Assembly (NCBI GenBank): GCA_937872385.1
Contig: CALMSO010000093.1
Coordinates: 1 to 64,000 of the forward strand
Origin: an uncultured Saprospiraceae bacterium
GTDB taxonomy: Bacteria; Bacteroidota; Bacteroidia; Chitinophagales; Saprospiraceae
Reading direction: 5' to 3'
DNA: 64,000 nt
Both the position numbers and the translations under genes were made by a program. Under the pieces are notes generated by a model. The model was not told the origin of the DNA. It worked only from the letters and a program-made list of their open reading frames with translations, and made no database searches. Of the stretch, positions 1-49,164 are shown one piece after another; the stretch's first letter is position 1; each line of letters opens with the position of its first letter.

Positions 1-129
1 TTTGTGCTTCATCGTTTTGTTTATTTAGTTGGTGATGCATTTGACACAATGTTTTTAACAAAAATACACAAAATATTGGTAATCAATATTTTAAACTCAA
101 AACAAAATAGCATATCATACGGGCAAAGT

Positions 130-205
130 GTCACCCCGTTGGGGTTTTAATCCACTTTTTATGTCTTTATAAATGTGCCACCCCTACGGGGTTGTTTTTT
201 TACTT
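130..205. repeat. Two GC hairpin modules of the dispersed hairpin family
   Basis: Two short hairpins, ACCCC-GTT-GGGGT at 133-145 and CCCC-TAC-GGGG at 181-191, are separated by about 35 bases. The second is followed by a T-rich tail, so it could terminate plus-strand transcription. The same hairpin type with other loops recurs inside the inverted-repeat elements at 16288-16503 and 48798-49101. The first 130 bases of the window are A+T-rich and show no gene. Confidence 0.6.
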
Positions 206-226
206 ATTAGTAATTCTCAAATTTTA

Positions 227-15989: not shown

Positions 15990-16287
15990 TTCATTAGCTA
16001 AACCAAGTTGCGATATTCATTATTGAAAAAACTATTTAATATCTAAATTATTGATTATCAATATTTTATTAAAAATTATCGTTTTAAAACTTTACATTTC
16101 TTTTAAAAACAACTGAAATACATATATTTTATAACTAATTGAAAAATCAAGGATGAAGGATATAAAATATATAAATTTTCGTATTGTTTATAAATTTATA
16201 AATCAACGTTTTATGTATATAAAATCAAAACGAGCAAATAAAAAAATCAACAGCAAAGTGTTTAAAAGTTATAATGCATCATAAAAA
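15990..16287. other. Strongly A+T-rich gene-free stretch
   Basis: About 300 bases consist almost wholly of A and T, with near-palindromic words such as ATTGATTATCAAT and runs like ATATAAAATATATAAATTTT. No open frame of note and no promoter pair is identifiable. It borders the inverted-repeat element at 16288. Confidence 0.6.
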
Positions 16288-16503
16288 ATGCGAATATTGA
16301 GTTAATCCCGAAAGGGGTGGCACTATGTTGGTGTAACATGTCACCCCGCTGGGGTTCGTTTTTACGTATGCCTGATGCTTTATACTATTTTCAATTGGAA
16401 ATGACGTGCTTATTTATGCTCAAAAGCTTGTTTTTCAGAATTTTACAAAATCGTAAATCGGGCTTCGCAAATGGTATTAATCATTTGAACCCGATATTCG
16501 CAT
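16288..16503. mobile_element. Short inverted-repeat element, copy A (216 bp)
   Basis: The left end ATGCGAATATTGAGTT (16288-16303) and right end AACCCGATATTCGCAT (16488-16503) are inverted repeats matching at 13 of 16 positions. AAAAA flanks both sides (16283-16287 and 16504-16508) and may be a target duplication. Inside are two GC hairpins (TCCCGAAAGGGG near 16305 and CACCCCGCTGGGG near 16342). About 120 bases match the reverse complement of copy B at 48798. There is no transposase, so it is non-autonomous. Confidence 0.65.
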
Positions 16504-16656
16504 AAAAAGCTATTTTGTATGGTTGTATTCAAATGGTGGTGCACGGCAAAATGTGCTTAGCGGTTTTGTTACTCAACCAACCTGGAAAAACAGTAAATCG
16601 TTTCCGGCTGGAAAAATAATAACTTTCAAATGGTCAAAGTCAATAAAAACGATTTC

Positions 16657-20649: not shown

Positions 20650-20840
20650 TTGTTATTTTCGCTGTTCGCATTTCGCTATTCGCCACGCAGATAGCAGGAT
20701 ATAATACGATTTACGATTTACGATTTACGATTTACGATTTTGTAAAAGTTTGAAAAACAAGGTTTTGAATATGAATAAATACGGCATTTTCAATTGAAAA
20801 AGATATTACTTTTTTCAACCCTTCAACTTTTCAACCCTCA
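20650..20840. repeat. Composite dispersed repeat with CGATTTA heptamers
   Basis: The heptamer CGATTTA is repeated four times plus part at 20707-20741. It is flanked by a block containing CGCCACGCAGATAGCAGG and, downstream, TTGAAAAACAAGGTTTTGA and TTTTCAATTGAAAA, ending in pyrimidine words. The whole arrangement, about 180 bases, recurs inverted at 31137-31340. Its middle is related to the inverted-repeat elements at 16288 and 48798. Confidence 0.75.
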
Positions 20841-31136: not shown

Positions 31137-31340
31137 AGTTGAAGGATTGAGAAGTTGAAGGGTTGAAAAGTTGAAGGGTTGAAGGAAGTAATATCCTTTT
31201 CAATTGGAAACGACGTACTTATTTGTACTCAAAATATTGTTTTTCAAAGCTTTACAAAATCGTAAATCGTAAATCGTATTATATCCTGCAATCTGCGTGG
31301 CGAAAAGCAAACAGCCAATAGCGAACAGCTATATAGAATA
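31137..31340. repeat. Composite dispersed repeat, inverted copy of 20650-20840
   Basis: AAGTTGAAGGGTTGAA is iterated, followed by TTTTCAATTGGAAACGACG, TCGTAAATCGTAAATCG and GCAATCTGCGTGGCGAAAAG. Read on the minus strand, this is the same order of modules as at 20650-20840. The 339 bases between the flanking genes hold nothing else recognisable. Confidence 0.75.
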
Positions 31341-36996: not shown

Positions 36997-37073
36997 CGAA
37001 CGGTGACTTGCATGGATAGTCAAACAGTAGTAAAACCATGAATACGTCACAACTCATTGAAATTGGTATTATA

Positions 37074-37200
37074 CGATTTACGATTTACGATTTACGATTT
37101 ACGATTTACGATTTACGATTTTTTAAGGTATTGAAAATCAGAATTTTAAACACAAACAAACACCTCACGTTCAATTGAAATTCAATTGAAATCGGTATTA
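37074..37200. repeat. CGATTTA heptamer array with degenerate dispersed tail
   Basis: Six perfect CGATTTA units plus a partial seventh occupy 37074-37122. The following 80 bases (AATTCAATTGAAATCGG) are a degraded version of the sequence following the array at 20707. Beyond them, to 37265, are fragments of the TTTTCGC-type words seen in the other blocks. No gene is recognisable in 36888-37288. Confidence 0.8.
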
Positions 37201-48758: not shown

Positions 48759-48797
48759 ATAAAAAACTGACAGTACATATCTATTTGTATAATAATA

Positions 48798-49101
48798 ATG
48801 CGAATATCAAGTTCAAATGATTAATAACCATTTGCGATTTGCGAAGTTCGATTTACGATTTTGTAAAACCCTGAAAAACAAACTTTTGAGCATAAATAAG
48901 CACGTCATTTCCAATTGAAAATAGTATAAAAACGAACCCCATAGGGGTGATATAATTATCAAGGATATAAATAAGGCGATTTAAACCCCAGCGGGGTGGC
49001 ATATTACACCAACACGGTGTCACCCCGTTGGGATTCAAAACCATTGATTATCAATTAACTATAAATTTTTCACCCCTTCGGGGCTAACTCGATATTCGCA
49101 T
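48798..49101. mobile_element. Short inverted-repeat element, copy B (304 bp)
   Basis: ATGCGAATATCAAGTT (48798-48813) and AACTCGATATTCGCAT (49086-49101) are inverted repeats matching at 15 of 16 positions, flanked by TA on both sides. Four GC hairpins lie inside: CCCC-ATA-GGGG (48937-48947), CCCC-AGC-GGGG (48986-48996), CCC-GTT-GGG (around 49027) and CCCTTCGGGG with a UUCG-type loop (49074-49083). The first 120 bases match the reverse complement of copy A at 16288. An open frame inside (48853-49044) is repeat-derived. Confidence 0.7.
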
Positions 49102-49164
49102 TAATGATTTATGGCAAGTTGTCTAATTTTTGTTAAAATAATACTTTTTCAATAAAATATAACT

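Follow-up and report, generated by a model that had tools for sequence, protein, structure and literature searches.

The window, by which we mean the whole stretch analysed (64,000 nucleotides, positions 1-64000 of contig C93), belongs to a Saprospiraceae genome of 4.85 Mb assembled in 113 contigs. It contains two gene-free segments of 304 and 216 bp, whose boundaries were placed correctly by a first-pass annotation (Table 1). The annotation described them as ending in matched inverted repeats of about 16 bases; the matching is evident, and in the longer segment the arms extend over 18 nt with 94% complementarity and a spacing of 272 nt. We call the family to which both segments belong R1 and give its terminal inverted repeat (TIR) as 16 bp, ATGCGAATATCRRGYT. 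With up to one mismatch allowed, the window has 7 occurrences of the core of these ends, ATGCGAATATC, where 1.7 would be expected. The 120 bases said to be common to both segments in opposite orientation were recovered as an alignment of query positions 3-135 with the minus strand of C93:16379-16503 at 88% identity, and the segments indeed differ in hairpin number, with two CCCC/GGGG hairpins in the shorter and four in the longer. The larger part of these 120 bases does not stem from R1; it belongs to a nested element, R2, which was absent from the first-pass annotation, as was a third, end-less R1 copy near the contig start. Tandem ATTTTAGAT repeats adjoin the latter at 225-300. R1 contains no gene, and in the window copy no stop-free stretch exceeds 64 codons.

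Table 1. Features of R1 and R2 in the window.
Feature	Position	Strand	Evidence or remark
R1 composite copy 1, R1 with nested R2, 304 bp	48798..49101	+	TIRs, genome-wide family
R1 left TIR (end A), ATGCGAATATCAAGTT	48798..48813	+	pattern match, 0 mismatches
R1 right TIR (end B), ATGCGAATATCGAGTT	49086..49101	-	inverted-arm comparison, end-pattern search
Left target-site duplication TAATA, copy 1	48793..48797	+	4 of 5 bases equal to TAATG of the right side
Right target-site duplication TAATG, copy 1	49102..49106	+	
Nested R2, 102 bp, copy 1	48825..48926	+	TAA flanks at 48822-48824 and 48927-48929
R1 GC hairpin 1, ACCCCATAGGGGT	48936..48948	+	
R1 GC hairpins 2 and 3, jointly also the central palindrome of R1	48985..49032	+	
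R1 GC hairpin 4, CCCCTTCGGGG	49072..49083	+	
R1 composite copy 2, short R1 variant with nested R2, 216 bp	16288..16503	-	
Target-site duplication AAAAA, left of copy 2	16283..16287	+	
Target-site duplication AAAAA, right of copy 2	16504..16508	+	
Nested R2 in copy 2	16383..16476	-	TTA flanks at 16380-16382 and 16477-16479
Third R1 fragment, degenerate, without TIRs, two ACCCCNNNGGGGT hairpins	75..207 (approximate)	-	near contig start
Solo R2-family copy	20705..20805	+	
Solo R2-family copy, degenerate	31192..31278	-	
Solo R2-family copy with expanded CGATTTA repeat	37072..37197	+	

Copies and target sites of R1

With the window element as BLAST query, 81 pieces were recovered genome-wide, and the R1 end pattern gave 186 matches in the genome at up to three mismatches against 36 for a reversed-pattern control; therefore the recurrence of R1 is not due to chance. 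R1-specific sequence is present at about 44 places, as counted from the BLAST and end-pattern matches. The copies were enumerated from sequence searches and fetched loci, and the genome-wide search for facing ends that the first-pass annotation had proposed resulted in a curated set of 26 two-ended elements of 118-320 bp. Pairwise identity has a median of 87% and a maximum of 97%. The copies fall into size classes of 118, 168, 216 and 304-320 bp, and this variation is due to the presence or absence of R2 together with the loss or gain of a unit of about 50 bp between the repeated CCCC-GGGG hairpins. A fourth short repeat (L245 2307-2402 and L246 13653-13752, 79% over 100 bp) adjoins truncated R1 ends.

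Perfect direct duplications of 5 bp flank 13 of the 26 copies, and at least 4 of 5 bases match in 20, compared with a mean of 1.2 and a maximum of 6 perfect matches when the flanks were re-paired at random in 10,000 trials. Exact flank matches of 4 bp were seen in two copies and of 6 bp in one. The AAAAA noted earlier on both sides of the shorter window copy is such an exact 5-bp target-site duplication; the TA reported at the longer copy is present on both sides as well, and it proves to be the inner part of a decayed 5-bp duplication, TAATA/TAATG. The flanks are 83% AT, and 25 of the 26 copies are clear of predicted ORFs, the remaining one overlapping a single ORF end by about 20 bp.

Empty sites were sought by joining the flanks of R1 copies, minus one 5-bp duplicate, and comparing the joined sequence with repeats elsewhere in the same genome. 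The joined flanks of locus L043 reconstitute R2 over its whole length and without a gap (83% identity to L139 over 107 bp), those of L008 restore the R2 border gap-free (84% over 86 bp), and those of L023 restore it with a 1-nt gap. With several further R1 copies the joined flanks show a weaker likeness (69-88%, gapped) to a third AT-rich repeat, GTAAGTAATGGGACATTGTTATTTGTTAATTGGG. This dispersed repeat flanks the R1 copies L007, L029, L039, L062 and L064, and it may be a target for R1 insertion. An orthologous empty site was sought in a genome of the same genus (G001) and not found: the M28 gene of the window is present there (73% identical), its downstream neighbour differs, and the region downstream of M28 is not syntenic.

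The nested element R2

R2 is about 101 bp long (TACCATTTGCGATTTGCGAAGTCCGATT...CAATTGAAAATAGTA), has a short TIR of about TACYATTT and is flanked by 3-bp TWA duplications. It is also found in numerous solo copies (of 171 candidates, 42 gave scored matches), and the copy nested in the longer window element is 94% identical to solo copies. Exact 3-bp duplications accompany 21 of 34 R2 copies (13 TTA/TTA and 8 TAA/TAA), the shuffle mean being 12.6 (p = 0.0008, a value somewhat optimistic because R2 copies that share the nesting site in R1 do not each represent a separate insertion), and an exact 4-bp match occurs once. Five solo copies are identical over 101 bp, so R2 has moved recently.

The position of R2 inside R1 is fixed at CAAATGATTAA/AGCATC, and R2-free R1 copies run uninterrupted through this site. 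It is occupied by two R2 subtypes with a likeness of about 75%, which lie in opposite orientations (for example window 48822-48929 versus L049), so that either two or more insertions took place there or R2 was exchanged. In the composites L002, L007, L013, L016, L020 and L021 R2 lies at the same internal site at different loci, and beyond the R1 ends each of the six is bordered by a perfect 5-bp duplication of its own. We conclude that the composites transposed as units, a separate insertion of R2 at exactly the same base pair in copy after copy being far less likely. R2 is a second, unrelated and independently mobile MITE.

Host range and candidate mobilising enzymes

R1 was found in none of 60 relatives, G001 included, and its 16-nt end gives 0-1 match per genome in 397 order-level genomes versus 29 here. 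The paired-end R1 pattern (119-179 bp) was absent from the genome contig and viral contig collections searched, as was the simple 168-bp copy from the plasmid and phage collections searched. R2 is abundant in G001, and 35 further relatives lack it; therefore the host range of R1 is narrower than that of R2. A search of papers on Saprospira and miniature inverted-repeats did not yield such an element. The DUF4256 protein encoded in the window has its nearest relatives mostly in Bacteroidota.

The first-pass annotation had also suggested looking for a transposase whose ends match; among the families searched (DDE_Tnp_1, DDE_Tnp_4 and DDE_Tnp_1_4), the genome yielded none whose ends are like those of R1. 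DDE_Tnp_1 gave two matches, both IS4 fragments without R1 ends, IS1380-type enzymes (DDE_Tnp_1_4) gave no match in the genome, and DDE_Tnp_4 gave one 3'-terminal fragment, which was rejected as the source of R2 since no obvious R2 ends could be seen by eye at the locus. Among the matches listed in the end-pattern search, there is no facing pair of R1 ends spaced as in an IS. The IS4-family fragments at C72:84159 and C57:59173 were rejected as a source of R1 or R2 because their ends do not match, one of them merely adjoining an R2 copy. An IS4-family transposase is represented by three truncated relics (L125 2055-2807, L126 2090-2496 and L246 near 13400), the first of which is abutted by an R2 copy; their common right end, ...GTACTGAA, is unlike R1, and R1 does not have the ends of an IS4-family derivative. 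Isolated R1 ends, one at C91:20248 and one at C27:173813, were considered as remains of an autonomous element and rejected: both run into a common short repeat, that at C27:173813 also into a further IS4 relic, and neither place has a transposase linked to R1. Several of the 113 contigs end in R1 or R2. Thus these repeats probably break the assembly, and in an assembly fragmented in this way a multi-copy IS could be missing.

Discussion

Our data imply that R1 is a real, previously unnamed MITE family that carries a nested second MITE. It combines TIRs, duplications of constant length, short non-coding length, dispersed copies and within-genome empty sites. The first-pass annotation had left the choice between a mobilisable MITE and a structural repeat; the recurring facing ends, the constant 5-bp duplications and the empty target sites inside other repeats support the former. 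The past mobility of R1 is well supported, and we infer the mobilising enzyme to be a DDE-type transposase that has since been lost or is not represented in the assembly. We are highly confident that R1 is a non-autonomous derivative of a DNA transposon, which was moved in trans and later became host to R2. A DDE-type transposase supplied in trans would cut or copy R1 at its ATGCGAATATC ends, and R1 would be inserted at staggered 5-bp cuts in AT-rich intergenic DNA; the unrelated R2 landed in R1 at the one fixed site CAAATGATTAA/AGCATC, and the R1+R2 composites then spread as units to different loci.

One would argue that an element so rich in hairpins is a functional structured element, such as a bidirectional terminator or a regulatory RNA, which was duplicated and whose hairpins are under selection. 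Full R1 without R2 is a nested palindrome of 214-218 bp, the window copy has a much more stable fold than shuffled sequences (z = -4.1, folded as DNA), 94% of cells pair in 15 aligned copies, most copies are located between genes and one terminator-like site lies within the element. However, in the same 15 copies compensatory changes do not exceed those of shuffled controls, for extended or for local hairpin structures (a GU/AC count was set aside because it was dominated by pairs always showing G-U), and thus neither selection on R1 structure nor the structural-repeat option is supported. Moreover, of the 24 copies that could be scored, 18 are situated between genes in tandem and no more than 3 between convergent genes, hairpins are freely lost among copies, and no Rfam family is matched at the gathering threshold, the sub-threshold matches MIR398 and mir-927 being plant and animal models which we take for chance palindromes. 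Such an explanation, which moreover leaves the 5-bp duplications unaccounted for, is in our opinion hardly credible.

The hairpins could alternatively be the mobile signal itself, with R1 being a REP/BIME-type repeat moved by an HUH transposase (Y1, RAYT or IS200-like) and with TIRs that are incidental. At C113:34885 an IS200-like single-domain Y1 transposase gene is followed by the hairpins AACCCCGCAAGGGGTGACATA and TATGTCACCCCTTCGGGGTTT and by three 32-nt units with GATATAATTGTAA (L249 1444-2193, a BIME-like hairpin array). The inner hairpin of R1, AACCCCNNNGGGGTGACATAATTATAA, agrees with the hairpins of this locus at 20 of 21 nt, and among the own-genome loci sampled, a sample enriched for R1, the hairpin-plus-tail pattern is confined to R1 and the Y1 locus. 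Contrastingly, HUH enzymes produce no target duplications, whereas the TIRs of R1 have exact 5-bp ones; copies of 118 and 130 bp that lack most hairpins keep both TIRs, the 118-bp copy even with a perfect duplication, and no R1 TIRs are found at the Y1 locus in the stretch read. Therefore we regard movement of R1 by an HUH enzyme as very unlikely. A second Y1 transposase in the genome (L250, C5:83576 region) has GGCGACTTCAGTCGCC hairpins on both sides, which is the typical RAYT/REP arrangement.

The match to the Y1 locus can be accommodated in a different way while R1 is kept as a MITE of the DDE type: its hairpins may be captured REP-like units, for which the sequence likeness is suggestive, not proof. 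In such a combination a DDE-type MITE shell would have taken up REP-like palindromes of an IS200-like/Y1 system and would serve as the landing site of R2 too. We consider this possible and rather doubtful; if it is true, R1 would carry the recognition signals of three unrelated mobilisers within about 300 bp.

Since R2 is found inside R1, R1 is found inside R2 and composites moved as units, relative ages can be read without recourse to other strains: R2 occurs genus-wide and is in part recent, and R1 was found only in this species. In other respects R1 is ordinary mobile DNA, a family that is new within a familiar class of genome parasites.

When known systems are considered, R1 resembles REP/BIME repeats located beside RAYT or IS200-like Y1 genes in that its inner hairpins match those at C113:34885; it differs in having both TIRs and 5-bp duplications, which REPs lack, and so does not have the make-up of a REP/BIME. 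Duplications of 3 bp of the TWA type are typical of the PIF/Harbinger / IS5 superfamily. R2, with its exact TTA/TTA or TAA/TAA duplications, is in this respect like a PIF/Harbinger-like or IS5-family MITE, and it differs from these by its short TIR and by the lack of an intact matching transposase among those found.

The closest MITEs described in Bacteroidota are BrickBuilt, MITE239, MITE464 and MITE700 of Porphyromonas gingivalis (PMC4596501). R1 is similar to them in copy number, intergenic position and the lack of transposase remnants, and BrickBuilt has variable internal repeats and nesting with other elements has been reported in P. gingivalis, as in R1 (PMC4596501). However, the TIRs of the P. 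gingivalis MITEs, GAGACCTTTGCA or ACGTCAGTTCGA, are similar to those of IS5-family ISPg elements and unrelated to ATGCGAATATCRRGYT of R1 (PMC4596501), which has neither of the two and thus does not belong among these MITEs by its ends. Their duplications vary in length, whereas those of R1 are constantly 5 bp, and the internal unit of BrickBuilt is a 23-nt tandem repeat, whereas the internal units of R1 are hairpins (PMC4596501). To the known families R1 adds a species-restricted one, whose 5-bp duplications are clean and whose nesting is recorded with unusual clarity.
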